Of a stretch of 64,000 nucleotides of DNA, positions 21,116 through 48,740 are shown piece after piece. The notes below the pieces were generated by a model that was given only the letters and a program-made list of their open reading frames with translations, was not told where the DNA came from and did not search any database. This DNA comes from Jannaschia seohaensis (GTDB lineage: Bacteria > Pseudomonadota > Alphaproteobacteria > Rhodobacterales > Rhodobacteraceae). The first letter of the stretch is position 1, and each line of letters starts with the position of its first letter. The DNA lies in NCBI RefSeq assembly GCF_900116765.1, contig NZ_UETC01000001.1, positions 558,001 to 622,000 of the forward strand, given 5' to 3'. The position numbers were made by a program, and so were the translations under genes.

Positions 21116-22183
21116 TCAGGCCGGAGCGCTGGCGCGGGGCAGGGCCGCGCGGAGGCGGCGGCCCAATGGCTGCTCCACCCGCTCGGTCAGGAAGATCGAC
21201 AGCAGAACGATCCCGGCCTGAACGGCCAGCATGGCGGCGATCCCCAGGCCGGTGCCCAGCGCGCCCAGCGTGCTCAGCGCGGCCAGCACCGCGAGACCGA
21301 GATTCTGGTGCAGCAGGTAATAGGCATAAGAGGCCCGCCCGATCCGCGTCACGGGCCGGGCCGAGAGCACGGGCAAGGGACGCCGCGTCAGACAGGCCAG
21401 CGTGGTCAGCGCGATCAGCGCCAGCAGCGCGCCGAGATGGGCCGAGTCCTCGGGCGCATAGATCAGCGCCTGCATCGCGCCAAGCAGGAACAGCGCGAGC
21501 GGGCCGGGCTCGATCCCCTGGCTGCGCATCGCGGCCAGGGCGATGCCGAGGGTGAAGAAGGGCTGGAACTCGGTGAAGAGCAGGCCCGACAGCGCGTGGT
21601 CCGCCCCCAGCCGCGCCTGGATCACGGCGCAGACCAGAACGAACGCGGTCCAGGCCAGCAGGAACCGCCGCCGGGCCAGCCAGAACAGGAGCGCGGCGAC
21701 GCCGTAGAACCGGACCTCGACCCAAAGCGACCAATAGGCCCCGTCCAGCCATTCCAGGCCGGGCAGGCCCAGCGCGCGGCCGACATGCTCCGGCGGCAGG
21801 AAGAGCAGGCTGACGGCATATTCGACCGGCCCGCGGACCAACTCCGCTGGACCCAGAAGAGAGGTCGCCACGAAGGTGAGCGTCCCGCAGATCAAGAGCG
21901 TCGGCCAAAGGCGCAGCAGACGCCGCGCGGCGAAGTCCAGGGCGGAGGCGCTGCGCTCCAGGCTGAAGGCGATGACGAAGCCCGAGACGACGAAGAACAT
22001 CGACACGCCGAGATGGCCCAGATCCGCGAAGGGGATCCAGGCCAGCGCCTCGCCATAGGGAACCAGGTCGTCGCCCCGGCCCGCAGGCGTCCAGAACACG
22101 GCATAGTGGTAGAGCGCGACCCAGAGGATTGCGAGGGTGCGGACACCGTCCACGGCGTCCAGGCGGTCGGTCTGGGCGCTCAT
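21116..22183 (-). CDS. Acyltransferase 3 family membrane protein (OafA-like)
   Basis: A 355-residue integral membrane O-acyltransferase with about ten helices. The N-terminus carries the family features RLDAVDGVRTLAILWVALYHY (catalytic-type His) and GVSMFFVVSGFVIAFSL, with a later YWSLWVEVRFYG segment. Such proteins acetylate or otherwise acylate sugars of EPS, O-antigen or peptidoglycan. Its ATG overlaps the stop of the glycosyltransferase gene (ATGA), so it belongs to the minus-strand EPS operon starting at 25045 and probably modifies the polymer made by that locus. Confidence 0.9.
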   Translation of the reverse strand: MSAQTDRLDAVDGVRTLAILWVALYHYAVFWTPAGRGDDLVPYGEALAWIPFADLGHLGVSMFFVVSGFVIAFSLERSASALDFAARRLLRLWPTLLICGTLTFVATSLLGPAELVRGPVEYAVSLLFLPPEHVGRALGLPGLEWLDGAYWSLWVEVRFYGVAALLFWLARRRFLLAWTAFVLVCAVIQARLGADHALSGLLFTEFQPFFTLGIALAAMRSQGIEPGPLALFLLGAMQALIYAPEDSAHLGALLALIALTTLACLTRRPLPVLSARPVTRIGRASYAYYLLHQNLGLAVLAALSTLGALGTGLGIAAMLAVQAGIVLLSIFLTERVEQPLGRRLRAALPRASAPA

Positions 22184-23403
22184 CGCGCGGCCGCCAGGGC
22201 CGCGTCATAGAGGCCCGAAAGCTGGTCGATCCAGGCCCCGGGGGTCTGGGCGATCAGGCCCTCCCCGGCGAAGCCCGCGCGGCTCATAGCTTCGATCTCG
22301 TCGTCGGGGCGGTCCATGAAGGCAAGCAGGTCGCGCGCCAGCGAGTCCGGGCCGCTCACGTCCACTGCGGTGCCGAGGCCCGCTGCGACAACGTCCGGCG
22401 CCAGCAGCGCCGCGCGTGAGATCGCAACCGGCAGTCCCGAGAGGCTGGCTTCCGCGCCGACCAAGCCGAAGGGTTCGGCGAATCGGGATGGCATGACGAG
22501 CGCCCGGCAATCGGCCACGGCGGCGGCGATCTCGTCGCGGGGCGTCCAGCCCGCGAACTCCACCTCGGGATAGGCGCGCGTCAGCTCCTTGCGGTTCTCC
22601 GCCGAGCCGATCACCCGCAGCGGCAGCCCGGCGCGCCGCGCCGCTTCGCAGAGCAGCGCCACGCCTTTGCCCACCTCCAGCCGTCCGACATAGGCCAGCC
22701 GACGGTTCGTCTCGGCGGGGATGCGGGTCTCGCTCCAGCGCTCGACGGGGTTGCGGACGGTGCGGATCGCGGCCTCCGGCAGACCGCCGCGCGCCAGGCT
22801 GTCGCGCATGCCGGGATGGATCTGGAGCACGCCCGCCCAGTCGCGCCCGGCCAAGCCCCGCCGCACCTGCATCTGCCGCATGCTGCGCCACGTCTTTTGC
22901 GCGCGGGACCGGCGGTCGCAATTGGTCGCCAGACAGCTGGCCGACATCGGCACGCGGGCGCATTCCTCCCGGCGCTGATAGTCGAAATAGGCGCCGTTCG
23001 GGCAGGCCAGGAAGTAGTCATGGGCGTGCAGGAACGTGTGCGCGGCGACCGGGGCAAGGGCATCGAAGACCGAGGGCGACAGGATCTGCGCCCAGCCATG
23101 CAGGTGATAGACCGTGTCCGGCCCGTCGATCTCGGCGATGGCGCGGGCCAAGCCGTCGCGCTTGGCCGCATCGTAGAGACCGCGCCGCGCGGCGTGAAAT
23201 TTGCCGCGCTTCAGAAGCGCCGTGCCCCCCAGCGCGACGACCTGAACGCCCTGCGCCGCCAAGGCGCCGTCATCGCCTCCATCCCCGCAGATATAGGTGA
23301 CGCGGTGACCCCGCATCCGCAGCATCCGCGCCGAGAGCAGCGCGAGCCCCGTCGCCCCCCCGCGCGCCACGCTCGCGTCGTTGATGACGACGACATGGGG
23401 CAT
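22180..23403 (-). CDS. Glycosyltransferase family 4
   Basis: A 407-residue GT-B glycosyltransferase. The N-terminal half begins MPHVVVINDASVARGGATGLALLS (donor/acceptor Rossmann). The C-terminal half has RRLAYVGRLEVGKGVALLCEAA and PSRFAEPFGLVGAEASLSGLPV, the usual E-x7-E retaining motif region. The ATG at 23403 is chosen because the homologous sequence begins there; the frame is open 51 codons further up. It is the third gene of the minus-strand EPS operon, 44 bases after the family 2 glycosyltransferase, and is coupled to the acyltransferase. Confidence 0.9.
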   Translation of the reverse strand: MPHVVVINDASVARGGATGLALLSARMLRMRGHRVTYICGDGGDDGALAAQGVQVVALGGTALLKRGKFHAARRGLYDAAKRDGLARAIAEIDGPDTVYHLHGWAQILSPSVFDALAPVAAHTFLHAHDYFLACPNGAYFDYQRREECARVPMSASCLATNCDRRSRAQKTWRSMRQMQVRRGLAGRDWAGVLQIHPGMRDSLARGGLPEAAIRTVRNPVERWSETRIPAETNRRLAYVGRLEVGKGVALLCEAARRAGLPLRVIGSAENRKELTRAYPEVEFAGWTPRDEIAAAVADCRALVMPSRFAEPFGLVGAEASLSGLPVAISRAALLAPDVVAAGLGTAVDVSGPDSLARDLLAFMDRPDDEIEAMSRAGFAGEGLIAQTPGAWIDQLSGLYDAALAAAR

Positions 23404-23447
23404 CGGCTGGGCCTCCGGCAGGCCGGGTTGGGGGCGCAGGGGAACGG

Positions 23448-24353
23448 TCAAAGGTCGAGGATCCGACGCGGAGACAGCCGCCCCCGCGCGAGATCCGCCA
23501 GAGCGGTCAGATTCCCGCGCAGTCGCCCGACCCGGTCGACCCAGGGCTCGGGCCAAGGGGCGCGGAGGAGATTGGCCATCATGTTGCGCGACATCAGTCG
23601 CAGGGCGCGGCGCGGAGACATGGTCCCCTTGCGGATGAGGTAAATCGGGTTGGCCAGCTGAGAATAACCCAGAGGCACCCCGCGTGACCGCCCCTTTTTC
23701 GTGCCGAGGTGAACGCCGAAGACGCTGTCGCAGCGCAGGATCTCGCCATAGCGCGCCATGTTCCGGCTGAAATCCACGTCCTCCAGCCAGCCATAGAGCG
23801 GCAGATCGGTGTCGAACCGGACGCCGTGACGGGCGGCCGTCTTCATGCGCAGCGCCATGTTGCAGCCATAGGCGTTATAGACCGGGGCGCAGCCGCCCAT
23901 ATCATCGGGCGGGGTCAGCATCTCCATGCCGCGGGCATGGTCCAGGCCGGGGCCGAGGATGCCGTCGGCCATGACGCGCCCGGTCGCCATGACGACGTCG
24001 GGGCGGGTTCCGAAAAGCCGGCGCAGCGCGCTGACCGACCCGTCGCCGAGCAGGTAATCGTCGTCGAGAAACAGAATGATCGCGTCCTCGGGGGCGGCGT
24101 CGAGAACCGCGTTCCGCTGCGCGCACAGGCCCTTGGGTCCGGACAGCACCCGCAGCGGGATCGTCAGCAGCGCCGAAAATTCGGCGGCGAGGGCCTCGGG
24201 CGCGGCGACCTCCTCTTCGGCGACCGAGAGCCAGACGGCGTCGGGCTGGTCGCTGAGGCTTGCGATCTGTGCCAGCGTCTGCTCCAGAACCGGGCCGCGC
24301 CCGGCAGAGGCGATCGCCAGCAGGATCGGCGGCTTGGCAGGGTCCGCCATCAT
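23448..24353 (-). CDS. Glycosyltransferase family 2
   Basis: A 301-residue GT-A fold transferase. The nucleotide-sugar segment is PILLAIASAGRGPVLEQTLAQI, the DxD motif is IILFLDDDYLLGDGS, and later motifs include GWLEDVDFSRNMARYGEI (E-D catalytic-base type). The start overlaps the stop of the priming sugar transferase by one base (TGATG), so translation is coupled. It adds a sugar to the lipid-linked repeat unit in the cytosol; sugar identity cannot be read. Confidence 0.88.
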   Translation of the reverse strand: MMADPAKPPILLAIASAGRGPVLEQTLAQIASLSDQPDAVWLSVAEEEVAAPEALAAEFSALLTIPLRVLSGPKGLCAQRNAVLDAAPEDAIILFLDDDYLLGDGSVSALRRLFGTRPDVVMATGRVMADGILGPGLDHARGMEMLTPPDDMGGCAPVYNAYGCNMALRMKTAARHGVRFDTDLPLYGWLEDVDFSRNMARYGEILRCDSVFGVHLGTKKGRSRGVPLGYSQLANPIYLIRKGTMSPRRALRLMSRNMMANLLRAPWPEPWVDRVGRLRGNLTALADLARGRLSPRRILDL

Positions 24354-25045
24354 CAACAGGCCCCCGACCCGCGGAGGACCACGAGCGGCGTGCGCAGGAT
24401 GATACGGAGATCGCCCAAGAAGCTCCGTGTCGCGACATAGGCCATGTCCAGCCGGACGCGGTCGGAGAATTCGAGCCCGCTCCGCCCGCTCACTTGCCAC
24501 AGGCCGGTCACGCCGGGGCGCACCGACATGTAGGCCGCGGCGTTCGCCCCATAGCCGCCGAGCTCTTCGGCGGTGATCGGGCGGGGGCCGACGAGGCTCA
24601 TGTCGCCGCGCAGCACGTTGAGGAATTGCGGCAGCTCGTCGATGCTCAGCTTGCGGAGCAACCCGCCGAAGGGCAGCACCCGGGGGTCATGGCGCAGCTT
24701 GCGATGCGACTCCCATTCCCGGCGCGCCACCGGATCAGAGGCCAGCAGCGTCTGCAACCGGTCCTCGGCATCCCGCACCATGGTCCGGAACTTCAGGCAA
24801 TGAAAAACCCGCCCGTATCGGCCAACCCGGGCATGTCCGAAGAAAATCGGCCGGCCATCGGAGATGAGGATCGCGACCGCCACGGTCGCCATGAGAGGGA
24901 ACAGGATCAGAAGGGCGATCACCGCGACCAGGCGGTCGAAAAACGACTTCCATAAATCTCCCCAAAGGCCGCCACGAGCGAGGGCACGCGTTCCCAGGTC
25001 CGGCGCGAACAACTCGGCCGGTTCGGTAGAAGAACCATACTGCAT
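24353..25045 (-). CDS. Undecaprenyl-phosphate sugar-1-phosphate transferase (ExoY-like)
   Basis: The priming enzyme of repeat-unit synthesis: it moves a sugar-1-phosphate from a nucleotide sugar to undecaprenyl phosphate. The 230-residue protein has one membrane anchor (VAVIALLILFPLMATVAVAIL). The cytosolic catalytic core has FHCLKFRTMVRDAE, LRKLSIDELPQFLNVLRGD, MSLVGPRP and RPGVTGLWQVSGRS, all family signatures. It is the short ExoY type rather than the five-helix WbaP/WcaJ type. It heads the minus-strand operon with the two glycosyltransferases and the acyltransferase. Confidence 0.93.
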   Translation of the reverse strand: MQYGSSTEPAELFAPDLGTRALARGGLWGDLWKSFFDRLVAVIALLILFPLMATVAVAILISDGRPIFFGHARVGRYGRVFHCLKFRTMVRDAEDRLQTLLASDPVARREWESHRKLRHDPRVLPFGGLLRKLSIDELPQFLNVLRGDMSLVGPRPITAEELGGYGANAAAYMSVRPGVTGLWQVSGRSGLEFSDRVRLDMAYVATRSFLGDLRIILRTPLVVLRGSGAC

Positions 25046-25355
25046 ATCACTCGGAAAGGCCGCGAGGCCCTCCCCCCATAGTTACTAATCTAACATTGTC
25101 CGGCAGAGACAAGGTCTATAGGGCAAGAAATACCACGCGGCCTAACCTTCGGTAAACTGGGATATTAACCGGCAGCAAAGAAAGAAACGGCCCTATTCGT
25201 GACGAATTCTTCTGCCATAGGAAAATTGTGGCGATAGCCCGAACAATAGGTATCTCGTTGCCCGAGGATGGCCACAAGATTCCCGCGGTGCCGCCACAAA
25301 CTGATTCTCGTTCCGCCGCATTCCGGCGCCGCAGCATGGAAGGACGCTGACTGCA
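25046..25355. promoter_or_regulatory. AT-rich divergent promoter region of the EPS locus
   Basis: A 310-base region between the divergent priming transferase and flippase genes, clearly lower in GC than its neighbours. It contains a perfect inverted repeat, ATTCGT-g-ACGAAT (25195-25207), that could be an operator serving both directions. I could not assign -35/-10 boxes with confidence. No small gene was found. Confidence 0.5.
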
Positions 25356-26828
25356 ATGACCAAGGAGACCGGCTCCGTCCCTCTGTTGGGGGCTGGCGCG
25401 CTCTCGGCGGCGGAGCGGGTCGTGGCGCAGGTCTGCCAATTCGCGATCTTCGTGATCGCCGCCCGCGCGCTCGGCCCGGCGGAGTTCGGCGTCTTCGCGC
25501 TGGTCTCGGCCTGCGCGATCCTGCTGATGCGCGCGGCCGAGGTCGGCTGGGCGCCCTATATCATGTGCTGGTCGGGCGACGCCTCGGTGCCGCGGCAGGT
25601 TCTGGGGCTGGCGGTGCTGTCGGGCGTCCTGGCCGGGGCGCTGGGTTTCCTGGGCGCGTTCCTGGGCGGCGTGTTCGGCCTGGAGGTGGCGACTGTCACC
25701 CTGGCGGAGCTCTTCGCGCTCTGGGTCGTGCTGGCGACCGTCTCGTCCGCGCAGAAGGGAATGATGGTCTGGATGCAGCGGCTTCGTTCCTCCGCCGTCT
25801 GTGAGATCTCGGGCGAGTTGATGGGTCTCGCCGTGGCGCTGGGCGCGCTTTGGTCCGGCTGGGGCGTGTTGGCGCTGGTCTTCGGCCGGCTGGCCTATCA
25901 GACCACCCATCTGACGCTGAGCTTCACGGTGACGCGGCTCTTGCCCGATTTCCGGGTCCGGCTGTCGCAGATGGGCGCGCTGGTGGACTTCTCGCGCGAC
26001 TTCTTCTTCAGTCGGATGCTGTCCAACACCCGCCTCTATGTCGCGACTTTTATCGTCGGCGGCGCGTTGGGGCCGACCGAGGTCGGCTATCTGCGCGTCG
26101 CGGAGCGTCTCGTGGGCGCGGTGGGCGAGGTGATCGCGGTCCCGGCGCAATTGCTGGGCTGGGCGGCGTTCAAGCGCGCCCGCGACGTCGGCGACCCGGA
26201 GGTCGCCCGCACCCGCGTGGGGGACGGGCTGGCCGTGTTCCAACGGCTCGCCTGGGCGATCTCGGTCCCGCTCTTCGTCTGGCTCATGGTGACGAGCGAC
26301 ATCCTGGTCGCGGGCCTGCTGAGCGAGGAATGGTTGCCTGCGGTGCCGCTGATCGTCCTGCTGGCGTTGGCGCGCCTCCTGGGGACGTTCGGCCTGGCGA
26401 CGGAGCCGCTGATGTCGATCCTGGGCGAATCGCGGGTTCTACCGCGCCTGTCGCTGCTGCTGCTCGTCACCAACACGATCGCGGCGCTGGCGGCGGTGCC
26501 GTTCGGCCTCTACGCGGTGGCCTGGGCGCAGTTGGGCGTCTCGGTGCTGTTGCTTGTCGTGACTCTGCGGATCTTCGATCGCCATGCGGGCGTGACGCCG
26601 ATGCGGGTGCTGCGCGACCTCGCCGGGCTTGCGCCGCCGCTCGCCCTGGGCGTCGCGGCGCTGCTGGTGGTGGACTGGGCGTTGCGGACGCAGGCGGGGT
26701 TGCCGCCGCTGGTGCAGACGGTGGTTTCGGGCCTGGTTGCCGGGGGCGTCTATGCCGGGGCTTTGGCCCTGCTCGCGCCCCGCGTCCTGCGGGAGCTGTC
26801 CGGCCGCGGCCAGCCAGCGGCGGCGTAA
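25356..26828 (+). CDS. Polysaccharide flippase (Wzx-like, MOP superfamily)
   Basis: A 490-residue membrane protein with about 12-14 helices, starting LLGAGALSAAERVVAQVCQF and continuing IFVIAARALGPAEFGVFALV, the N-terminal pattern of lipopolysaccharide/EPS repeat-unit flippases. It would move the lipid-linked repeat unit to the periplasmic face. The stop overlaps the ATG of the next gene (TAATG). It is divergent from the priming operon, and downstream, after a further gene, comes the PKS-NRPS. Confidence 0.9.
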   Translation: MTKETGSVPLLGAGALSAAERVVAQVCQFAIFVIAARALGPAEFGVFALVSACAILLMRAAEVGWAPYIMCWSGDASVPRQVLGLAVLSGVLAGALGFLGAFLGGVFGLEVATVTLAELFALWVVLATVSSAQKGMMVWMQRLRSSAVCEISGELMGLAVALGALWSGWGVLALVFGRLAYQTTHLTLSFTVTRLLPDFRVRLSQMGALVDFSRDFFFSRMLSNTRLYVATFIVGGALGPTEVGYLRVAERLVGAVGEVIAVPAQLLGWAAFKRARDVGDPEVARTRVGDGLAVFQRLAWAISVPLFVWLMVTSDILVAGLLSEEWLPAVPLIVLLALARLLGTFGLATEPLMSILGESRVLPRLSLLLLVTNTIAALAAVPFGLYAVAWAQLGVSVLLLVVTLRIFDRHAGVTPMRVLRDLAGLAPPLALGVAALLVVDWALRTQAGLPPLVQTVVSGLVAGGVYAGALALLAPRVLRELSGRGQPAAA

Positions 26829-27619
26829 TGCGCGCGGCGTTGGGGCGGGCCCTGCGGACCGGAGGGCTGGCCGGGGCGGCGATCTTGGCGCGGGCGCGGG
26901 TCCGGCTGGGCCTGGCCCCGCGCTTCTCTGGCGTCTGGGACACGAGAGAGGCGGCGCTTGCCGCGCTGCCCGCCGCCGAGGCCCGGGGCTATGACGACCC
27001 GGACATCGCCGAGGTGTCATTCGAGGCGATGTGCAACCGGGAGGTCTGGGACTACCCCGTTCTCCACTGGCTCTCTCGCTGGCTGCCGGATGCGCCGCGG
27101 CTGCTGGACGCGGGCGGCCACATGGGCACCAAGCGCATCGCCTTGGGGGCGCTGCTGCCGCTGGAGGGCGTCACCTGGACCGTGCTCGACACCCCCGGGA
27201 TCGTGACCGCCGCGCGGGCCGCGCAGGCGGCGGGGCGGATCCCGGCCGACCTCTCCTTTGTCGACGCGCCCGAGCGCGCGCCCGAGACCGACCTGCTGCT
27301 GGCGTCCGGCCTGATGCAATATGTCGACCGCTCCCTGACGGAGGTGATCGCCGCGCTGCCCGCCCCCCCGCGGCACCTGCTGCTCAACAAGGTCGCGCTG
27401 CGCGACGGCCCGCAGATCGTCACCCATGAGCGGCTGGACGCCGTCCGCGTGCCCTACCGCATTCGCGCCCGCGCCGATTGGCAGGCGGAGTTGGATCGGC
27501 TCGGATACGACCTGGTCGACACGTGGCGCATTCCCGATCTGTCCCACCGCATTCCGACTCACCCCTGGCTGGGTATGAGTCAGAGTTGGGGCTTCGCGCT
27601 GACGCAACGGCAGAAGTGA
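26828..27619 (+). CDS. Methyltransferase, TIGR04325-like family
   Basis: A 263-residue protein with a Rossmann-like centre: RLLDAGGHMGTKRIALGALL (SAM-loop position), WTVLDTPGIVTAARA and ETDLLLASGLMQYV. This matches the family annotated as putative methyltransferase TIGR04325, which is usually found in polysaccharide and lipopolysaccharide clusters. It begins within the flippase stop codon (TAATG). The substrate is unknown; a sugar or, given the next gene, a peptide product are both conceivable. Confidence 0.8.
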   Translation: MRAALGRALRTGGLAGAAILARARVRLGLAPRFSGVWDTREAALAALPAAEARGYDDPDIAEVSFEAMCNREVWDYPVLHWLSRWLPDAPRLLDAGGHMGTKRIALGALLPLEGVTWTVLDTPGIVTAARAAQAAGRIPADLSFVDAPERAPETDLLLASGLMQYVDRSLTEVIAALPAPPRHLLLNKVALRDGPQIVTHERLDAVRVPYRIRARADWQAELDRLGYDLVDTWRIPDLSHRIPTHPWLGMSQSWGFALTQRQK

Positions 27620-27823
27620 TGAGACAATAGGGCGGATCGGGGTGTAATCTTGCAGAATCAATGGCGAATGCCATGGAATCGCCTTGTTTTGGGTTGCGCC
27701 CGGCATACCGTGATCGCGCCTGTTCCGTAGTATGGTCCTGTTTAACTGCCAGAGGCGAGCAACAGCCGGAGGGAAGGTCGTATTGATCCGGACCCCGCGC
27801 CGGCGCTTTCGAAGGTTTCGGTC

Positions 27824-27871
27824 ATGGTTCTGGCGCGCATTTTCGTTTTGCCCTCCCGGTGCCCGCGATGA
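27824..27871 (+). CDS. Possible 15-residue leader peptide coupled to the PKS-NRPS start
   Basis: An ATG at 27824, with GAAGG 8 bases before it, opens a 15-codon frame ([15 protein letters not shown]) whose TGA at 27869-27871 overlaps the ATG of the megasynthase (ATGA). The megasynthase ATG has no ribosome site of its own, so translation could reach it by coupling from this leader. Short frames arise by chance in GC-rich DNA, so this is a suggestion. Confidence 0.35.
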   Translation: MVLARIFVLPSRCPR

Positions 27872-30800
27872 GCGGGGTGCCCGACGCGGCGCTGCGGGAC
27901 GGCCTCTTCGCTGGCATCGCCGCGCAGGCTGCGCGCCGCCCAGAGGCGGTGGCGGTCCATGGCGCGCCCGCGCGCCGCTATGGCGAACTCGTTCTGTCCG
28001 CCCGGCGTATCGCCGGGCAGCTCGCTGCGGCCGGGGTCGCGCCGGGCGATCATGTGGCCCTGTGGGGCGCGCGGTCGGCCGAGGCCATCGAGGGCCTGCT
28101 CGGCATCCTCGCCGCCGGGGCCGTCGCGGTGCCGCTGGACCCGAGCTTCGCCGCCGAACGGATCGGCGCGATCGTCGCCGACGCCAAGCCCCGGGCCCTG
28201 CTGGCCCCCGCTCCGGCGCGGGCGGAGGCCCTGCGCATCGCCGACTGCCCCGTGATCTCACCCGGCGACGGCCCCGCGCTCCCGCCCGTCTCCCGCGCGC
28301 GGGAGGATCCCGCGCTGATCCTCTATACCTCCGGCTCCACCGGGCGGCCCAAGGGCGTGGTGCTGCCCCATCGCGCCCTCGTCGGGTTTGAGCATGGGCC
28401 GGGCGATCTGGCGGTAACGGCGGAGGACAGGGTCCTACATGTCTCGACCCCCGCCTGTGACGGGGCCATCGAAGAGACGCTGACGCCGCTGCTGCGCGGG
28501 GCGTCCATCGCCGTGGTGCCGGCCGGGCTCGCGTCGGCCTCGGCCGTGGCCGAGACCATCGCGGCGCATCGCGTCACCGTGGCGACGCTCTATACGGGGC
28601 TGCTGCACCTGCTGATCGACCACCGGGTCGACGGATTCGCCGGGGTCCGGCTGGTCATGGCCGGGGGCGAGGCGATGGACCCGGCGCGCGCCCGCGCGCT
28701 GCTGGCTGCGCATCCCGGCCTTGTCCTCGTCAACGAATACGGGCCGACCGAGACCTGCTGCGTCAGTCTCGCCCACCGTGTCACGCCCGAGGATCTGGCC
28801 GCCGACGCGCCCCTCCCCATTGGCCGCCCGCTGGCCGGGGAGGAGGTCGTTCTGCTCGACCCCGATCTGGCTCCGGTCCCCGAGGGCGCCATAGGCCAGA
28901 TCGCCATCGGCGGCAGCGGTCTGGCGCTCGGCTATTTGGGGCGTCCCAAGAAGACGGCCGAGGCCTTCATCCCCGACCCGCGCCCCGGCCGGAACGGCCG
29001 CCTCTACCTGACCGGCGATCTGGGCCGCGCCCGCGCCGATGGCGTGCTGGAGTTCCACGGCCGCGTCGACCGGCAGGTCAAGCTGGCCGGCCGCCGGGTC
29101 GAACTCGACGGCATCGAGGCCGCCTTGCGCGCCGCCCCCGCGGTCGCGGATGCGGTGGTCGAGAAATGGGGCGACGGTCTCGTGGCTTTCGTGGTGCCGG
29201 CGACCGACGGCGACCTGCCCGCGCTGCTGCGCGCGCAGACCCAGGCCGCCGATATCCACCCCCATGTCTTTCCCCGCCGGATCGAGGCGCGCGATGTCTT
29301 CCCGCTACGGCCGAACGGCAAGGTGGACCGCGATGCGCTGCGCGCGTCCCTCGCGGCGATCGAGACCGGCCCGGCCCCGGCGGCGGGCAATCTGCGCGCC
29401 ACCGTCGCCGGCATCTGGCAGGAGATCCTGGGCACGCGCCCCGCTCCGGCCGACCGATTCTTCGATCTGGGCGGCACTTCGCTGCAACTGATCGAGGCCC
29501 ATGCCCGCATCGAAGCCGCGCTGGATCGCCGCTTCGACGTCGCGGCGATGTTCGACCATCCGTCCCTGGGCGGGCTCTGCGACTTTCTGGCGGGCGCCGA
29601 TAGGGCCGCCCCCGCCGCGACCACCCGCAGGACCGAAGAGGCCATCGCCATCGTCGGCCTTGCCGCCCGGCTGCCCGGCTTGCCCGATCTCGACGCCTTC
29701 TGGCAGGCGACGCTGGAGGGCCGGGACAGCATCACCCGCTTCGCCCCCGAGGAACTGGAGGACGGCTTCGACGCCGAGACCCGCGCCCGCCCCGACTTCG
29801 TCGCCGCGCGCCCGATCCTGTCGGATGTCGACCTTTTCGATGCCAGGCATTTCGGCATGACCCCGCGCGAGGCCGCGCGCACCGATCCCCAGGCCCGGAT
29901 CTTCCTGGAGCTTTGCGCCCAGGCGCTGGACCACGCGGGGCTGGACCCGACGCGCCCACCGGGCCGGGTCGGCGTCTATTCCGGCGCCTCCATGTCGACC
30001 TATCTGCTGGAAAACCTGCTGGCCGGGCCGGGCGCCCTGCGCGACTTCACCAGCCAGTTCCAGATCGACTACACCAACCTCGCGGGCAATGGCGGCGACG
30101 ACATCCCCGCGCGCGTGGCGCAGAAGCTGGGCCTGACCGGCCCGGCGGTCAGCATCACCACCGCCTGCTCCACCGGCCTTGCCACCGTCATCGCGGCTTG
30201 CGACGCGCTGCGGGCGGGCCGCATCGGCGCGGCGCTGGCGGGGGGCGTCTCGATCACCTTCCCGCAGAAGCGCGGCTATCTCGGGGCCGAGGGCGGCATG
30301 GTCTCGCTCGACGGCACCTGCCGGCCCTTCGACGCCCGCGCCAATGGCACGATCTTCGGCGACGGCGCGGGGGTGGTCGTGCTCAAGCGCCTCTCGGACG
30401 CGGAGCGGGACGGCGACACGATCCATGCGGTGATCCGCGGCACGGGGCAGTCCAATGATGGCGGGCGGGGCATGTCCTTCACCGCGCCTTCAGCCATCGG
30501 CCAGTCGGAGGCCATCGCCGAGGCGCTGGCCGATGCGGGGCTGACCGGCGACGATATCGGCTATGTCGAGTGCCACGGCACTGCCACGCCCCTGGGCGAT
30601 CCGGTCGAGATCGCGGGGCTCAGGCGCGCCTTCGCCGGCGCCACCGCGCCCTGCGCGCTGGGGGCGGTGAAGGGCAATCTCGGCCATCTGGACGCGGCGG
30701 CGGGGATCGCGGGGCTGATCAAGGCGGTGCTGGTGCTCAAGCACGGCACCGTGCCGCCGATCGCCCATCACCGCTCCGCCAACCCCCAGATCGATCTGAG

Positions 30801-40753: not shown

Positions 40754-41880
40754 GCCAGCCCCGCGGGCAGCATCGCGCGGATACCGGACTGGAACGCGGC
40801 TTCGGAGAAGCCCTGCGCATGGGCCACCAGCCGGGCCGGGTCTACGTCCCAGAGCCGCTCCGCCTCGAACCGCTCCACCGCCGCGACCAGCGCATCGACC
40901 GACTGCTCGGGGAACAGCAGGCCGGTCTCGCCATCGACCACCGTGTCGAGCGCGCCGCCTCGCCCATAGGCGATCACGGGACGGCCGGAGGCCATCGCCT
41001 CGACCGGGACGATCCCGAAATCTTCCTCGCCCGGGAAGATCAGGGCGCGGCAGCGGGCGAGATGGTCCTTCAGCACGGGAAAGGGGGCGCGGCCGAGAAA
41101 GGTGACGTTGGGCGTGGCGCGGGCCTTCAGCGCCGCCACCGTCTTGTCCGGCCCGCCGATCACGACCAGGGGCAGGCCGAGCCGCCCGAACGCCTCGACC
41201 GCCATGTCGGGGCGCTTGTAGGGCGCGAGTTCGCCGGCCCAGAGATAGAACTCCTCGGGGCCGCCGGGCGCGGGCGCGAAATCCTCGACGGCCACGGGCG
41301 GGTGCACGACGGTGGAGGGGCGGCGCCAATATTTCTCGATCCGCGCGGCGACATGGCCCGAATTGGCGGCGAAGGCATCGACCCGCGCCGCCGAGGTCAC
41401 GTCCCATTGCCGCAGCCCATGGGCGAAGACCGACATGGCGGCGCGCTGCGCCGGGCCGGTGCCGTCGCGATAGGTGTGATACTGATCCCAAAGGTACCGC
41501 ATCGGCGAATGGCAATAGCACAGGTGGAACGCGTCGGGCGGCGCGATAACGCCCTTGGCCGGCCCCGCCTCGGACGAGATCACCAGATCGTAGCCGGTCA
41601 GGTCCACCGCCTCCAGCGCGCGGGGCATCAGCGGTAGATAGGCTTGGTAGAGGCGGCGTGCGGCGGGCAGGCGGCCGATCCAGGTTTCGCGGATGCGGTG
41701 GGCCGTGAGCGTATCGGACAGCGCCGAGGGGTCAGCCACATGGGTGACGATGTCGGCCTCGGGGAACATACGACATAGCGATTCGAGCACCTTTTCGCCG
41801 CCGCGCATCTTCGTCAGCCAGTAATGCACCAGCGCGATGCGCGGGCGGCGGCGGGTCGGGCCGGGGGCGGTGTCAGGCAT
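40750..41880 (-). CDS. Glycosyltransferase family 4 (WbaZ-like)
   Basis: A 376-residue GT-B transferase. The N-terminus RIALVHYWLTKMRGGEKVLESL is the group typical of WbaZ/mannosyl-type EPS transferases. The C-terminal half has FYLWAGELAPYKRPDMAVEAFG and IFPGEEDFGIVPVEAMASGRP (E-x7-E). The ATG at 41880 overlaps the last 8 bases of the Wzc-like gene, and its stop overlaps the PPTase start, so Wzc-like, GT4 and PPTase genes form one tightly coupled minus-strand unit. This physically ties polymer export to the assembly-line activator. Confidence 0.9.
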   Translation of the reverse strand: MPDTAPGPTRRRPRIALVHYWLTKMRGGEKVLESLCRMFPEADIVTHVADPSALSDTLTAHRIRETWIGRLPAARRLYQAYLPLMPRALEAVDLTGYDLVISSEAGPAKGVIAPPDAFHLCYCHSPMRYLWDQYHTYRDGTGPAQRAAMSVFAHGLRQWDVTSAARVDAFAANSGHVAARIEKYWRRPSTVVHPPVAVEDFAPAPGGPEEFYLWAGELAPYKRPDMAVEAFGRLGLPLVVIGGPDKTVAALKARATPNVTFLGRAPFPVLKDHLARCRALIFPGEEDFGIVPVEAMASGRPVIAYGRGGALDTVVDGETGLLFPEQSVDALVAAVERFEAERLWDVDPARLVAHAQGFSEAAFQSGIRAMLPAGLA

Positions 41881-44086
41881 AGCCGTAGCTGAAGAGATAG
41901 CCGTCGGGCACATGCTCCAGATCGGCGCGGGTCATCACGACGCCTTCCAGGTTCGCGTCATGGGCGGCCAGGACGGACATGCAGCGGCGGACCGCCGATT
42001 CCTGCGTCTGGTCGTGGCGGATCAGCAGCACGCATTGGTCCACCGCCCGGGCGATCACCGCGCCATCCGGCGCTTGCAGCAAGGCGGGCGTGTTGACCAG
42101 GACGACGTCGTAGATGTCTTTCAGGTCGTCGAGAAGCTGCGACAGGCTGCCCATGCGCAGCGCGTCGGTCGCCCGCGCGCCGGGACGGCCCGCCGTCACC
42201 ACGTCGAAATCCAAATCCTCGGAGGAATAGATCGCCTCCTCCAGGCTGCACTCCCCGCGCAGCACGTCGCCCACGCCCGCGCGGCGGCCCAGCCCGAATT
42301 CCCGCGCGAGCGTGTCCTGACGCAGGTCCATGTCGACCACGACGACATGCTCGTCGGCGAGGCCCGCGAGGCGGGCCAGCAGGATCGTCGCGGTCGTCTT
42401 GCCATCGCCCGAAAGCGGCGAGACCAGCGCGATGGACCGCGAGAGCGCATCCGGCGCGCCGGCGTTCAGATGGTTGCGCAGGGCGCGCACCGCCTCGGCG
42501 GTATGTCCGATCGGGTTGCAGACGATCTCGTCGACGGCGGCTTGCAGCCCGTCGAACCTGGTCTCGGGCAGGACGCTGACGACGGGCAGGCCGGTGGCGC
42601 GCTCGACGTCGTCGGGGTCGTGGAAGGTGCGGGTGGCGAGACGGCGCATCAGAACGATGGCAAAGCCCAGTCCGGCCCCGGCGAACAGCGCCATGATCGA
42701 CAGCAGCTTGGGACGCGGCGACGCAGGCGAGCCGGGGATCGTTGCGCGCTCGATCACGCGGGCATCGGGGGATTGGAACTGCTCCTGGGTGCGGGTCTCG
42801 GCCACGCGGGTCAGGAGTTCCTTGTAGACGTCGCGCACGGCTTCCGTCTCGCGCTCCAGCTGGCGCAGGCCGATGGTGGAGCGGGAGGCATCGAGATAGC
42901 GCGCCTCGACGTCTTCGAGGGCGGCCTCCATCGTCTCCTCGCGGACGCGGGCGATCCGTGCCTCGTTGCGCTGGGCGTCCAGCGCCCGGGCGACCTCGAT
43001 CTCCATCGAGCGGTCGACATCGCCGAGACGGGCCAGGATCTTGCGCCGCTCCGGATGGGTGTCGGGATAGCCCTGACGGGCCCATTCGGCATCTTGCGCT
43101 TCGAGCTCCAGCCGCCGGGCGTTCAACTCCACGATGTTGTCGGAGGTGACCATGTTGATCAGCGCGATGGCGCCGCCGGTCTCGACGAGGCGCTGCATTT
43201 CCTCGAACCGCGTCTCGGCTGCGACGCGCTCGATGCGGGCCTGGACCAGCTCGTCGTTGAGCGAAATCAGCCGCTGGGAGAGGATGTCGATGCTGGAGCC
43301 GTTATCGGCGATGGTGGAGGCGCGGTAGTCTTCCACCGCCTGCTCGGCGGCTTCGACCTGTTGGCGCAGGTCGGCGATGCGCGCTTCGATGCGGGCGGTC
43401 GCTTCGGTCGCGGTCTGCTGGCGGCCCTCGACCTGCTGGGCGATGTAGCGCTCCACCAGGGTTCCGGCGACCGTCGCGGAGAGAACGGGATCGTGCGTCT
43501 CGGCATAGACTGAGATGATGTAGGCATCGCCATCGCGCCAGACATCCGTGGCCTGACGCAGCGCCCAGACGAGGGCGTCCATGCGCGCGGCTTCGGACAT
43601 CTCCCGCTCTTCCTCGGACAGTTCGGGCTCCGGGCCCCCGATCCCGATCGCGTCGAGGATGCGCCGGGGCAAGGAGGGCGGCTGCTGCGAGGGCAGGAGC
43701 AATTCCAGCAGGTCGGGCCGGTCGGCGCCGATGGTCCGGGCCACATCCTCCAGAAGGACGTTGGAGCGCAGGATGGATATCTCGGAGGCGACGACCTCGC
43801 TGGAGAGGTCCAGATCGGCCACGACCTGCTCATCCTTGACGAGCGTCCCCTCGCGCGGGTCGAGCAGCACCTTGGCGATGGAGCCGTAGACCGGCGTCAT
43901 TTGCGAGACGATCAGATAGGTCAGGACCGCACAGATCAGCGCCGAGGTCAGGATGATCCAGCGCCCGGACCAGATCCCTGCCAGGACATCGCGCGGGTCG
44001 ATTCCGTCAAGGCCTTCGTTGCCTTGGGGCACGAAGCGGGACAGCGGACCGGGCCGGACGTCGAAATCGGCGACCTCGTGGGTCAT
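41873..44086 (-). CDS. Wzc-like polysaccharide chain-length / tyrosine autokinase protein
   Basis: A 737-residue inner-membrane protein with a Wzz domain flanked by two membrane helices (WIILTSALICAVLTYLIVS near residue 45; LLSIMALFAGAGLGFAIVLM near residue 500), a long periplasmic coiled coil between them, and a C-terminal bacterial tyrosine-kinase domain. The kinase has Walker A VSPLSGDGKTTATILLA and Walker A' VVVVDMDLRQ. The C-terminal end has only a few tyrosines (GYLFSYGYA), a short version of the usual cluster. It controls polymer length and export in Wzx/Wzy systems. The ATG at 44086 follows GAGGAG; a longer upstream frame lacks homology. A 188-base gap with AT-rich patches precedes it. 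Confidence 0.92.
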   Translation of the reverse strand: MTHEVADFDVRPGPLSRFVPQGNEGLDGIDPRDVLAGIWSGRWIILTSALICAVLTYLIVSQMTPVYGSIAKVLLDPREGTLVKDEQVVADLDLSSEVVASEISILRSNVLLEDVARTIGADRPDLLELLLPSQQPPSLPRRILDAIGIGGPEPELSEEEREMSEAARMDALVWALRQATDVWRDGDAYIISVYAETHDPVLSATVAGTLVERYIAQQVEGRQQTATEATARIEARIADLRQQVEAAEQAVEDYRASTIADNGSSIDILSQRLISLNDELVQARIERVAAETRFEEMQRLVETGGAIALINMVTSDNIVELNARRLELEAQDAEWARQGYPDTHPERRKILARLGDVDRSMEIEVARALDAQRNEARIARVREETMEAALEDVEARYLDASRSTIGLRQLERETEAVRDVYKELLTRVAETRTQEQFQSPDARVIERATIPGSPASPRPKLLSIMALFAGAGLGFAIVLMRRLATRTFHDPDDVERATGLPVVSVLPETRFDGLQAAVDEIVCNPIGHTAEAVRALRNHLNAGAPDALSRSIALVSPLSGDGKTTATILLARLAGLADEHVVVVDMDLRQDTLAREFGLGRRAGVGDVLRGECSLEEAIYSSEDLDFDVVTAGRPGARATDALRMGSLSQLLDDLKDIYDVVLVNTPALLQAPDGAVIARAVDQCVLLIRHDQTQESAVRRCMSVLAAHDANLEGVVMTRADLEHVPDGYLFSYGYA

Positions 44087-44274
44087 CTGGCTCCTCTCGT
44101 GGGACGGGCGCGCGGCATGCCGCGCGCGCGGCAATCCCTTGGACCGTCTCATGCGAGTACCCCCCCGATGCAAAGCATCGTGGGAAACGGACTCACCCTT
44201 CCGGTCTCGTCTACCATGTCCGAGTCGGCTCCATTACAGCGGCAATACCATAAACACCGTTTCCAAGTAGGAAT

Positions 44275-45696
44275 TCAGGCGGCAGGATGAAGAGCCTGTG
44301 GCGTCCTGCCCGCGTTGCGGGCCAGCGCCGCGCCACGCGACAGACCCGCCGCCGCCCCCGCCATCGCGTAAAAGGCGAGGCCCAGATCCGGCGTCGGCAG
44401 CGTCAGCACCGCCGAGACCAGCAGCGCCACGCAGCCCGCGCGCAGAGCATCGGCCACCTTTCCCTGCCGGTCCTCGCCGCGCCACGCCCCGCGGCTCAGC
44501 AAGAGCGCCCGCAGGAAGCCCGCATAGAGCACCGCGCCGATCAGCCCGAGCGAGGCCAGCACAGCCACGACCCAGCTGGACGCCCGGACCGAGCCGAGCC
44601 CCGCCCCGAGACCCCAGGTGTCAGCGAAGTTGATGAGCGCCTGGGCGTTCCAGCTGCCGCGCTCCTGTCCCGAGGCACCCTCCAGCTTGTCGAAAAGCGC
44701 GCGGTCGAAGAAGGCCTGGACCGGCTCCACGAAATGGTAGGCGCCGTAAAGCGCCACGATCCCCAGCCAGGCCGCCGTCAGCGACAGCCCCGCGATGGTG
44801 GCGCCGCGCCGGGACACCCGCCGCCCCATCCCCGCCAGGATGCGCACCGTGCCATAGAGCGACAGGAACGCGACCAGCCCGACATAGGCCGAGGAGGATG
44901 TCGAGTGGATCAGGCAGGCCAGCGTCGCGAACAGCAGCAACCCGGACAGCCGCCGCCGCACGCCCGTCAGCCACAGATGCAGCCAGACCGCCGAGAGGCC
45001 GAGGCTGAGATAGCCGAAGCTCGACGCTTCGGGGAAGCCGCCGATCATCCGCTTGAGCCCGATCATCTCGTGGTTCCAGAGGATGGCGTAATTGGCGGTG
45101 CGGAAGGGCTCCATCAGCGCCTCCAGCCCCGTGTGATAGGTCAGCACGTCGAGCACGCCGAGCGCGATATGCAGCCCCGTCGCCGCCGCCATCGCCGTGA
45201 TCACCGGTCCGGGATCGGGGCGCAGCCGAAAGATGGTGGCCGCCGCCAGGAAGATGCACACCCCCAGCAGGTGGCGGAAAAGCTGCGTCAGATTGCCGGT
45301 GCTGGGCCGCAGGGACGAGGTGACGACCCCGTTCTCGTTGCCCGCCCGCGCGATCGAAAAGACCAGCGTCTCGCCAGCGAAGAGCCGCGGCATCGCCATC
45401 GTGCAGAAGATCGCCCAGACCGTGAGCAGCGCGATCCAGAAGCCCGGCTGCCCCAGGCGCATCGTCCCCAGCAGGAGCGACGTGCCCCCCGGGCGCGCGA
45501 TCAGCAGCGCGATGATCCCGAGGGCGCCGATATCGGCCAGCAGGATCGAGGCGCCGCCCACAGCGGGCAGGTTGAACGCCGCCGTCGCCGCGAAGGGGAG
45601 GAGCGCCATGAACGCCCAGAATCCCCGCTGCGGCCCGCGCATGGCCAGAACGACCAGCGCCAGCACGACCAGGAGGGACGTGGGAAAAAGTTGCAT
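44275..45696 (-). CDS. O-antigen ligase / Wzy-like polysaccharide polymerase
   Basis: A 473-residue protein with about eleven or twelve hydrophobic helices and one long periplasmic loop (about residues 310-365, GAYHFVEPVQAFFDRALFDK…), the layout of Wzy polymerases and O-antigen ligases. Sequence identity in this family is low, so the call rests on topology and position. It is followed, on the same strand, by the Wzc-like gene. It would join lipid-linked repeat units in the periplasm. Confidence 0.82.
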   Translation of the reverse strand: MQLFPTSLLVVLALVVLAMRGPQRGFWAFMALLPFAATAAFNLPAVGGASILLADIGALGIIALLIARPGGTSLLLGTMRLGQPGFWIALLTVWAIFCTMAMPRLFAGETLVFSIARAGNENGVVTSSLRPSTGNLTQLFRHLLGVCIFLAAATIFRLRPDPGPVITAMAAATGLHIALGVLDVLTYHTGLEALMEPFRTANYAILWNHEMIGLKRMIGGFPEASSFGYLSLGLSAVWLHLWLTGVRRRLSGLLLFATLACLIHSTSSSAYVGLVAFLSLYGTVRILAGMGRRVSRRGATIAGLSLTAAWLGIVALYGAYHFVEPVQAFFDRALFDKLEGASGQERGSWNAQALINFADTWGLGAGLGSVRASSWVVAVLASLGLIGAVLYAGFLRALLLSRGAWRGEDRQGKVADALRAGCVALLVSAVLTLPTPDLGLAFYAMAGAAAGLSRGAALARNAGRTPQALHPAA

Positions 45697-45767
45697 GGCT
45701 TAGGTGCTGGCCTCAAAGTCTCGGGTTTGGTCAAGTACTTTCAGTATCCTGTCTTTCGGAGACGAAA

Positions 45768-47369
45768 ATGCGGTGGGTCCACGTCCTCTTCCTGACCGCC
45801 GCGCTGGCGGGCGCGGCCCCAGCGCAGGAGTTGCGCGGCCCCGATATGGCTGTGGCGTCCAATTTCGGCCAGGGGATGCCCCTTGGCCTGCTTCAGGCGG
45901 CGGTGGCGGCGGGAATCGCCGACTTCCGGGATGCGGTCTATTGGGACCGGGTCGAAGGGCCCGACGGACGCTTTCGCTTCGTGCGCGGCCGCGACACCTT
46001 TCCCGCCCGGCTGCCCCGCATGAGCCTGACGGTGAACAACGGCCATCCGGCCTATGAGGAGGGCGCCACCCCCGTGACGCCGGAGGGGATCGCGGCCTTC
46101 GGGCGGCACGCCGCCGAGACGGCCGCGCGCTTCCCGACCGTCGACGCGGTCGAGATCGGCAACGAGATCAACTCGGAGAATTTCGTCACTGGACCCTTGC
46201 GGGCGGGCGGGCTCGTCCGCCGGGCCGAGGGCTATACCGCGCTGCTAGAGAGTGTCGCGCGCCAGGTCCGGGCCGTGCGCCCGGATGTGCGCATCCTCGG
46301 GGGTGCGTTGCACTCGCTGCCGACGGGCTACACCGCGCTGCTCGATCGGGCCGGGGCCTTCGCTCACATGGACGCGCTGGCCTTCCATCCCTACGACACC
46401 CCGCCCGAGGTCTTGCCCGCGCAAGTGGCTGAGATGCGGCGCCTGCCCGCCCTGGCGGAGATGCCGTTCGAGATCACCGAATACGGAACACCCGATGCCG
46501 AGGCCGCGCCCGCGCTGCTGCTCAAGATGCATTGCATGGCGGCGCTGTCCGGGGTGACGCGCCTGGCCTGGTATCCGCTCCATCCCCGAGGAGACGGGTT
46601 CGCCCCGGTTCTGACCCGCGCGGGCGAGGTGACGGAGTTGGGCCGCGCCTATCTCTTCGTGCAGGACCGGTTGGCGGGGCTGCCGGTGACGAACGCGGCC
46701 CCCGACGCTTTCGCGCGCGGCTGCCGCTATGGCGACGCCGCCACGGTCATCTGGGGCGCCCCCCGCGAGGTGATCCTGCCGCCGGGGGCGCGGACCCTGG
46801 GTCCGAATGGCACGGAGATGGCGCCTGTCCTCTCCGAAGAGGTCCCGCTCCTTGTGCTGGGTCCTCCGCCGACGCTGGGACCGGTGGACCTGCTGGCCGA
46901 TTCGTTTCTGCAATTCGGCTATCCGGGCAAAGGGTTCACCCGGCTGGCGCGCAATCCGCTCGGGGTGGCGCCGCTGGTGACGATGCCGGGGCAGGGCCGG
47001 TCGGGCGTTCCCTGGACGCCCTATCTGGGCCGCCCCGACGATCCCGGGGTGCGGCTGCTCTCGCGCAGTCTGCTGCCTTCCGGAACGGCGGCCTTCCCGG
47101 TGGAGGTGGTGCATCGCTACGTCGCGCCCGCCGCTCTGGAGGCGGAGCTGGACCTGATGCTCCACCCCGCCGCGCGCAGCGTCGACGGGGTCCGGCTGAC
47201 GGTGAGCCTGGATGGCGCGGCGGTGACCGACCTTCACGTGACCGAGCGACACGAGGCGCGGCATGCGTTCTCCCTGGCGGAAGGATCGGTGCTGGAGATC
47301 GCGGTCGGCCCCGGCGACACGGCCTTGGGCGACGTGACCGGCTACCGCTTCACTTTGCGGGCACGCTGA
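45768..47369 (+). CDS. Secreted glycoside hydrolase, GH39/PslG-like
   Basis: A 533-residue exported protein. The signal peptide is MRWVHVLFLTAALAGAAPAQ. A TIM-barrel glycosidase domain (25-340) carries two well placed acids: the acid/base in DAVEIGNEINSENF and the nucleophile in MPFEITEYGTPD. A beta-rich C-terminal part follows. PslG-type endoglycosidases in EPS loci trim or process the nascent polymer in the periplasm, and position between the polymerase and the pyruvyltransferase supports such a role. It starts 71 bases from the divergent polymerase gene. Its 3' end overlaps the convergent pyruvyltransferase gene by 20 bases. Confidence 0.85.
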   Translation: MRWVHVLFLTAALAGAAPAQELRGPDMAVASNFGQGMPLGLLQAAVAAGIADFRDAVYWDRVEGPDGRFRFVRGRDTFPARLPRMSLTVNNGHPAYEEGATPVTPEGIAAFGRHAAETAARFPTVDAVEIGNEINSENFVTGPLRAGGLVRRAEGYTALLESVARQVRAVRPDVRILGGALHSLPTGYTALLDRAGAFAHMDALAFHPYDTPPEVLPAQVAEMRRLPALAEMPFEITEYGTPDAEAAPALLLKMHCMAALSGVTRLAWYPLHPRGDGFAPVLTRAGEVTELGRAYLFVQDRLAGLPVTNAAPDAFARGCRYGDAATVIWGAPREVILPPGARTLGPNGTEMAPVLSEEVPLLVLGPPPTLGPVDLLADSFLQFGYPGKGFTRLARNPLGVAPLVTMPGQGRSGVPWTPYLGRPDDPGVRLLSRSLLPSGTAAFPVEVVHRYVAPAALEAELDLMLHPAARSVDGVRLTVSLDGAAVTDLHVTERHEARHAFSLAEGSVLEIAVGPGDTALGDVTGYRFTLRAR

Positions 47370-48534
47370 CGCAGGCCAGCAGACGGTCGATCCCGGCCCA
47401 GGCCCTGGCGATCATGCCGTCCTGTCGCGGGTCCCGCTCGGCGGCCAGCGCCGCCTCCAGCATCTCGACGATGCGCGCGGGCGTGGCGCCTTCGGCGATG
47501 AAGCCATCGGGCCGTCCGGTCATCTCGAAGAAGGATTGCAGCTTGCGGTCCCAGCCCAGCCCGATCACGGCGCGCCCATAGGAATAGGCCACGATGCAGG
47601 CATGAAGCCGGTGGGCCACCACTGCCTCGCACCCCGCGATTTGGGCGACCAGCTCGGCCGGGCGCTCGGCGTCCGGGGGCAGTTCCAGCCGATCTGCGAC
47701 ATCCGCGAGGGCCGCGACCACGCGGACCCGCGCCGCCCGGTCTTCTGCGGCGCCATTGGTAAAGAGCCGCACGTTCCGCCCGGAGGCGATCAAGGCCCGA
47801 GCGACCGCCTCATAGAACCGCACGCCGCTCCCCGCGCCGGCGACGGCCCCGTCGGCATGGTGCTCCAGCAGCCCGAAATCCGTCACGCAGAGCCCGACCA
47901 CTCCGACCTTGGCCGCCACCGGCCCGTAGCAATCGGCGGCCAGCAGTCCCGGATCCGCGATGACTTCCGGCGCCGGGCCGCCTCCGGCCTGTGCGGTCCA
48001 GGCCTCGGCAGAGGCGATGTCGCGCGGGCCGACGAGTCGTAGATCGCAGGCCAGCAGCTCTCGGAACCAGTCCCGTCCCCGGGGCGTCCAATTGCGCGAG
48101 GCGCCCACCGCATAGAGCGCGAGCGGCGTGCCCGCCTCGGCGATCATCCGCGCGGCGCGGCCGACCTTGACCGGAAAGTTCAGGTTGGCGTCCGAGAGCA
48201 CCTGACCGCCGCCGATCACCACGAGGTCGGCCCGCGCCGCCGCATGCCACTGCGCGGCGACCCGGTCGACCATCGACTGCAGCTTGCGCTCCGCCAGGGG
48301 CTGGCGCACCGCGCGTGGCAGCCGGTCCAGGATCGCAATCAGGAGGCGCCGCCCGCGCACCGTCACATGGCCGAAGCCCTCCCGTCCGGACAGGTCGATA
48401 TGCGTCACCTCCACGCCAGGATGGCGCGAGCGGAGCCCGTGGGCCAGGCACTCGGCGATGACCCCGTCCCCGAGATTGGGCGAGAAGCACAGGCCGAACT
48501 GCGTCACGCGCAGCGGGGCAGGGGCGGTGTCCAT
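47350..48534 (-). CDS. Polysaccharide pyruvyl transferase family protein
   Basis: A 394-residue protein of the PS_pyruv_trans family (CsaB, EpsO, ExoV), which adds pyruvyl ketals to sugars. Visible features are TQFGLCFSPNLGDGVIAECL near the N-terminus, LVVIGGGQVLSDAN, and the C-terminal nucleotide-binding-like segment CEAVVAHRLHACIVAYSYGRA (the H-R-x-H motif). The ATG at 48534 is preferred; a GTG at 48567 is an alternative, and neither has a strong ribosome site. It is the last gene of the polysaccharide locus and would give the polymer acidic pyruvate groups. Confidence 0.88.
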   Translation of the reverse strand: MDTAPAPLRVTQFGLCFSPNLGDGVIAECLAHGLRSRHPGVEVTHIDLSGREGFGHVTVRGRRLLIAILDRLPRAVRQPLAERKLQSMVDRVAAQWHAAARADLVVIGGGQVLSDANLNFPVKVGRAARMIAEAGTPLALYAVGASRNWTPRGRDWFRELLACDLRLVGPRDIASAEAWTAQAGGGPAPEVIADPGLLAADCYGPVAAKVGVVGLCVTDFGLLEHHADGAVAGAGSGVRFYEAVARALIASGRNVRLFTNGAAEDRAARVRVVAALADVADRLELPPDAERPAELVAQIAGCEAVVAHRLHACIVAYSYGRAVIGLGWDRKLQSFFEMTGRPDGFIAEGATPARIVEMLEAALAAERDPRQDGMIARAWAGIDRLLACVSVPAK

Positions 48535-48740
48535 GGGCAAGCGAGTTCCGTCCTTATCTGATCGCACGGGAGCCTAACCATAGGGCACCGTGACGTCACG
48601 TCGGCGCTCTTGGCGGCGGAGCGGTTTGAATGCAACAGCCCGAGCCCCCACATAGCTGCGTCAAGATTGCCGGACAGCCGCTCCGGTGCTATGATTTTAA
48701 AAGGGCTGGTACGGCCCGCGAAACTCCGGAGGATCGGACC

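Follow-up and report, generated by a model that had tools for sequence, protein, structure and literature searches.

Why should a hybrid polyketide synthase-nonribosomal peptide synthetase (PKS-NRPS) lie in the middle of a set of genes for exopolysaccharide (EPS) synthesis? The question is raised by a 64,000-nucleotide stretch of Jannaschia seohaensis (contig NZ_UETC01000001.1, positions 558,001 to 622,000; hereafter the window), in which a sequence-only reading had placed a two-protein assembly line and its phosphopantetheinyl transferase (PPTase) inside a Wzx/Wzy-type EPS locus and had suggested that the product is attached to, or exported together with, the polysaccharide. Profile scans bore out this arrangement, with the PKS-NRPS spanning 27859-40079. 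In our view the assembly line is very likely (probability about 0.9) a part of the EPS pathway. The functional tie is well supported because 29 of 30 orthologous loci carry EPS genes, which contradicts the converse case, that the line and its PPTase usually occur in relatives without them; the sequence is compatible with an attached, a co-exported or a free product.

Orthologous lines were collected with two queries. With the second protein of the line, NRPS 2, as query, 15 of the 394 genomes of the family matched at 1e-60; genome_contigs gave 273 stretches, of which the best 80 were considered and 10 accepted as orthologues. The region of the first protein that covers the aminotransferase and the first condensation domain (aminotransferase-C1) found 23 of the 394 family genomes and 35 plasmid records at 1e-80, and six of 381 class genomes, our own included, at 1e-120. 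The 30 loci comprise 13 from the family (own included; chosen at at least 45% identity over aminotransferase-C1, with G091 admitted by 57% over a 655-residue fragment), 10 from genome_contigs, six plasmid records inspected out of 18 full-length matches at at least 45%, and G676 from the class sample. Two pairs are near-copies (G006 and the Loktanella record; G401 and G402). EPS genes were recognised by tblastn with the window proteins, by record annotation, or by Pfam where matches were weak (G401, G017 and G676).

At least two EPS genes were found in the fetched stretch at all but one of these loci, in strongly shuffled order, and the linked loci come from Rhodobacterales, metagenome-assembled genomes of Hyphomonadaceae/Caulobacterales, Rhizobiaceae plasmids, and one further family in the class sample. 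Closest to the window among the rows is Jannaschia formosa, with 93% identity in the aminotransferase; there the same locus adjoins the same rsfS-rlmH-gpmI genes, and in Jannaschia sp. M317 the locus is on a 72-kb plasmid. Linkage as a generic trait of aminotransferase-containing PKS-NRPSs is rejected, since the more distant lines of G388, G196 and G144 (38-40% identical) have no EPS genes by tblastn, nor among ten neighbours scanned with Pfam. By tblastn alone none were found beside those of G429, G496, G647 and G741 (36-39%), whose fetched stretches are largely assembly-line genes, or of G263, whose stretch is limited by the contig end. In an aminotransferase tree of 36 rows (G139 and G091 left out; midpoint root for drawing only) the EPS-linked rows form one group of 28 with support 100/99, with the unlinked G346 inside it and the other eight rows outside. 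The EPS label needs two changes on this tree, against a mean of 8.2 for shuffled labels, and none of 500 shuffles was as low; this fits, and does not prove, one gain and one loss of EPS linkage.

The first protein, PKS-NRPS 1, has by Pfam the order A1-PCP-KS-AT-ACP-aminotransferase (class III)-C1-A2-PCP, and contains the hybrid module KS-AT-ACP-aminotransferase-C-A-PCP with its catalytic residues. All 32 rows of a motif alignment (non-orthologues included, G346 present twice) have the cysteine of the KS and the lysine of the aminotransferase, and the AT carries HAFH, which we read as malonyl specificity, in 31; the C1 motif HHxxxDG is present in 29 of 31 rows, with one gap and one DH. The ten-letter code of A2 is DILQ, L/M/W/F, G, M/L/V, I/V, WK in 28 of 29 clade rows, those of rhizobial plasmids among them, and departs from this pattern only in the diverged G017; row G139 is outside the 29. 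The code is presumably one for glycine. A1 keeps Asp235 and Lys517 in the rows read, with the rest of the pocket variable: 16 distinct eight-letter codes were seen among 19 rows, and their mean pairwise identity was 0.27, compared with 0.43 over 1000 draws of eight random positions in the same core (P=0.014). The A2 code deviates in the opposite direction, being more conserved than random sets (0.83 versus 0.64, P=0.041); G263, G253, G017, G346 and G091 were left out of these statistics. The best PDB matches of A1 are amino-acid A domains, and in place of the N-terminal acyl-CoA ligase and fatty starter of iturin and mycosubtilin lines the protein begins with this A domain and its Asp235. From pockets and motifs we infer the line's order as a variable starter amino acid, one malonate, a beta-amine and then glycine. 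In G346 (L133) the line starts at the KS, and over 55 kb A1 was nowhere the best match; beside the line are a radical SAM protein and one of 751 aa that matches glycosyltransferases weakly.

NRPS 2 consists, in this order, of C2, a remnant A domain, a PCP and a thioesterase whose nucleophile position is occupied by Cys. Of the A domain only the C-terminal subdomain is left, the catalytic Lys being absent. In an alignment of 29 rows, one of which (G253) is not an orthologous line, the PCP serine and the thioesterase Cys are kept throughout, while the A-domain lysine appears in none of the rows aligning there. In 19 rows the thioesterase has a His two residues after the Cys and a second one at residue 842, in the numbering of the window's NRPS 2; its best PDB sequence match, 4zxh, likewise has Cys in this motif. 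The divergence of NRPS 2 is much faster than that of its neighbours: identity to J. formosa is 60%, versus 92-93% for KS and aminotransferase.

An intact version of the last module is found in G676, a genome from beyond the family that branches somewhere near the base of the group. Its C2 motif reads HHVVADG, its third A domain is complete and has the code DILQLGMIWK, and a PCP and a thioesterase follow, the latter with GWCVGG and, C-terminally, GDH; DAFWLGGTFK, the code of A1 in G676, resembles what we take to be a valine code. Because this third A domain carries a glycine code, the window remnant is most simply read as a decayed glycine-activating domain, and A2, which has the same code, could charge both carriers. 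With both glycine-charged the product would be diaminoacyl-Gly-Gly, or diaminoacyl-Gly if the last PCP merely passes the chain. A terminal module adding a third, different residue was set aside, as G676 shows the glycine code there.

We propose that the EPS pathway uses the assembly line as its dedicated decorating unit. A1 would load a lineage-specific amino acid, KS-AT would add one malonate, the aminotransferase would convert the beta-ketone to an amine, and C1 would join glycine from A2. A2 would probably charge the PCP of NRPS 2, which every aligned relative keeps, with glycine in trans, given the glycine code of the A domain retained at that place in G676. The resulting diaminoacyl-Gly(-Gly) chain, short and rich in amines, could then be passed by the Cys-type thioesterase to an acceptor, predicted to be, on the cytoplasmic face, a sugar of the undecaprenyl-linked repeat unit; C2 and this unusual thioesterase are the candidates for the transfer enzyme. 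The decorated unit would be flipped by Wzx and polymerised with Wzy/Wzc, and pyruvyl groups together with the amines may give a covalently modified polymer carrying both charges. We put joining to the repeat unit before flipping at roughly even odds, and offer only tentatively, with the odds somewhat against it, a class of polysaccharides with a PKS-NRPS-built side group that has a fixed beta-amino-Gly core and an exchangeable first amino acid.

The step before flipping is suggested by the genes that travel with the line. Among the 394 family genomes the conserved glycosyltransferase gene GT4b was found in 38, the Wzy-like gene in 28 and the orthologous line in 13, at the cut-offs used; the EPS backbone therefore exists without the line. 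As sister EPS loci we took 23 from the 27 genomes with GT4b but no linked line (38 minus 11), leaving out G018, G105, G301 and G329; the 23 include the EPS locus that G346 has apart from its line, 15 to 40 kb were read, and several loci showed just one to three backbone genes. A TIGR04325-family methyltransferase gene, which lies between the flippase and PKS genes and was missing from the sequence-only list, is present in 21 of 30 line loci and none of the 23 sister loci (Fisher 6e-8), and a flippase at least 30% like that of the window in 19 of 30 versus one of 23, that of G350 (Fisher 8e-6). A whole-genome methyltransferase search of 18 of the 22 sister genomes (G346 excluded) found none at 1e-10; that search held no positive control, and the same query found relatives by tblastn in a separate search. 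Whole-genome flippase searches matched two of eight sister genomes at 1e-15 (G350 35%, G113 26%) and, among five line-bearing genomes, G139 (51%) and G091 (41%). A flippase that changes with the line is expected if the group is added before flipping, and the association of flippase and methyltransferase leans this way.

Other genes also accompany some lines. A CocE/NonD (S15) hydrolase, absent from the window, adjoins PPTase or GT4b in 10 among the first 24 regions (e.g. L158:9053-10864) and possibly trims or activates the line product. Two annotated rhizobial records add a DegT aminotransferase and a GMC oxidoreductase. A GINT1_N-like protein, perhaps a glycosyltransferase, is found in rhizobial and some other line loci (L126:4177-5763; homologue L164:27123-28784) and also in eight of the 23 EPS loci without a line.

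Several observations weigh against the proposed decoration. No enzyme plainly moving the product to a sugar was identified. The second His of the C2 HHxxxDG motif is kept in 10 of 29 rows and lost in 19, and in 19 rows the usual C-terminal His of the thioesterase is not seen at its aligned place; the last protein may therefore do something else. The flippase occurs without the line in G350, while no flippase of at least 30% was found genome-wide in the line-bearing G142 and G017 (no match) and G346 (28%), nor in the fetched stretches of G401, G402 and G676. The stretches read were mostly longer for line loci than for sister loci, which may inflate the contrast between them. Distances of PKS domains correlate moderately with those of EPS genes (0.36-0.78), and common descent confounds this measure; we did not use it as evidence of co-evolution. 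In G346, the sole unlinked locus, the line, its PPTase and an adjoining methyltransferase of the same kind as the window's are on one contig and an EPS locus without a line is on another.

This separation in G346 also favours a free small molecule (signal, surfactant or metal binder) made with the EPS and kept in or working with the matrix, so that linkage would stem from common regulation and use and not from attachment; release of a free product through a thioesterase is normal, and the existence of same-kind backbones without the line indicates that the polymer does not need it. We nevertheless consider a free product unlikely, though a serious contender, as the scanned locus genes show no exporter besides the flippase, no receptor, no resistance gene and no regulator of their own, and the transporter that accompanies the line is the flippase. 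It is improbable that the product serves as an anchor or cap, placed once per chain at the reducing or non-reducing end: A1 and A2 resemble amino-acid and not fatty-acyl adenylation domains, and the flippase association fits action on each repeat unit, even if a short diaminoacyl group could end a chain and rhizobial rkp capsule loci with a PKS/FAS-like protein offer a precedent. Chance neighbourhood, or an island gathering surface and secondary-metabolite genes, might be argued from the plasmid location of several loci and from the G+C of the locus, slightly above that of its flanks (0.713 versus 0.678 and 0.701). Linkage at nearly every locus in distant groups with shuffled gene order, and the one supported tree group, make this very improbable, and chance was rejected on the linkage survey.

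The genes named in the sequence-only reading were all located, the polymerase and the glycosidase without a profile match (Table 1). Features of a Wzx/Wzy-type EPS locus are present: a flippase, a priming transferase, glycosyltransferases and a Wzc-type co-polymerase/autokinase. The set had been described as complete-looking, which it is not: tblastn with one Wza query found no Wza in the window, and PF02563 (Poly_export) had no match there. The J. seohaensis genome has four Poly_export genes at other places, and Wza is present in some related loci. The acyltransferase gene is accessory, being present in some relatives only; the TIGR03022 score of the priming transferase is under the family cut-off; and the true start of GT2 is probably near 24353.

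Table 1. Genes of the assembly-line and EPS locus (positions in the window)
Feature	Position	Strand	Evidence and remarks
Acyl_transf_3 membrane acyltransferase	21116-22183	-	Pfam PF01757, E=4e-27
Glycosyltransferase GT4a	22180-23556	-	Pfam PF00534; start probably downstream of the long ORF's start
Glycosyltransferase GT2	within 23448-24500	-	Pfam PF13641, weak (27.2 bits, cut-off 27); orthologues in relatives
Bac_transf priming sugar-phosphate transferase (WbaP/WcaJ C-terminal type)	24353-25045	-	Pfam PF02397, E=2e-60
Wzx-type flippase	25356-26828	+	Pfam PF13440; 10 hydrophobic segments
TIGR04325-family methyltransferase	26828-27619	+	NCBIfam TIGR04325, 143 bits (cut-off 80)
PKS-NRPS 1	27859-37374	+	Pfam domains, motifs, codes; start GTG 27859 or ATG 27868
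NRPS 2	37371-40079	+	Pfam, alignments, intact relative G676
Sfp-type PPTase	40001 to about 40754	-	PF01648 above cut-off; NCBIfam below cut-off
Glycosyltransferase GT4b, well-conserved backbone gene	40750-41913	-	Pfam PF00534; likely start ATG 41880
Wzc-like chain-length/tyrosine autokinase	41873-44173	-	Pfam Wzz, GNVR, AAA_31; NCBIfam
Probable Wzy polymerase	44275-45696	-	Nine predicted hydrophobic segments, conserved place; no match in Pfam or NCBIfam
Putative glycoside hydrolase, weakly PslG-like	45768-47369	+	E=0.3 to PslG; kept in relatives; no match in Pfam or NCBIfam
Polysaccharide pyruvyl transferase	47350-48567	-	Pfam PF04230, E=7e-27

The genes fall into a leftward run (acyltransferase, GT4a, GT2 and priming transferase), a rightward run (flippase, methyltransferase and the two assembly-line genes), a second leftward run (PPTase, GT4b, Wzc and probable Wzy), and a last group of the putative glycosidase and the oppositely oriented pyruvyl transferase, followed by rsfS-, rlmH- and gpmI-like genes. 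Flippase and methyltransferase genes overlap by TAATG, and those of PKS-NRPS 1 and NRPS 2 by ATGA. Translational coupling had been claimed for PPTase, glycosyltransferase and Wzc: the likely GT4b start overlaps the Wzc stop (41875-41873), as claimed, while at the PPTase/GT4b junction no ATG, GTG or TTG start is seen, the PPTase frame is open across it, and coupling is plausible only. The PPTase is very probably dedicated to the assembly line, since PF01648 has a single further match in the genome, in a frame that at 142 aa is of AcpS size. The PPTase and NRPS 2 genes are convergent, and their 3' ends overlap by 79 bases (40001-40079), the PPTase tail being antisense to the NRPS 2 end; in J. 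formosa the two frames do not overlap. A promoter and terminator scan of 25000-41000 gave no more sites than shuffled sequence and was uninformative.

If decoration by the assembly line is right, natural-product assembly lines decorate exported polysaccharides in marine and plant-associated alphaproteobacteria. Genome miners should then stop classing such clusters as orphan antibiotics, and EPS chemists should seek amide- or ester-linked diamino acids and glycine. Exchange of the A1 pocket would alter surface chemistry with the sugar backbone untouched, a serotype written by an adenylation domain; the side group and pyruvate together would make the polymer zwitterionic; and there would be a new route to programme polymer side groups. 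In the open-access literature, as represented by the titles and abstract openings listed, we found no description of a PKS-NRPS linked to EPS genes, which does not establish its absence from print.

Parts of the locus resemble known systems. With Wzx/Wzy EPS loci it shares the priming transferase, glycosyltransferases, flippase, Wzc-like protein, pyruvyl transferase and probable polymerase; it differs in having a bimodular PKS-NRPS and PPTase and in that Wza is not in the window locus. Iturin-type lines such as MycA and BamA start with an acyl ligase and share the middle part KS-AT-ACP-aminotransferase-C-A-PCP; BamA of Bacillus velezensis is 36.5% identical over 69% of the aminotransferase-C1 query. 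The window line differs in its amino-acid-type first A domain, its shortness and its EPS linkage. The C-A-PCP-TE protein of PDB 4zxh, which we take to be ABBFA_003403 of Acinetobacter, shares the Cys in the thioesterase nucleophile motif and, unlike NRPS 2, has an A domain; we know of no EPS genes beside it. Assembly-line-like enzymes serve surface glycans in rhizobial rkp capsule loci, through a PKS-like protein, and in the NRPSs of mycobacterial glycopeptidolipids. These make a lipid anchor or a lipopeptide core, whereas the window line would make a diaminoacyl-Gly group beside Wzx/Wzy genes.

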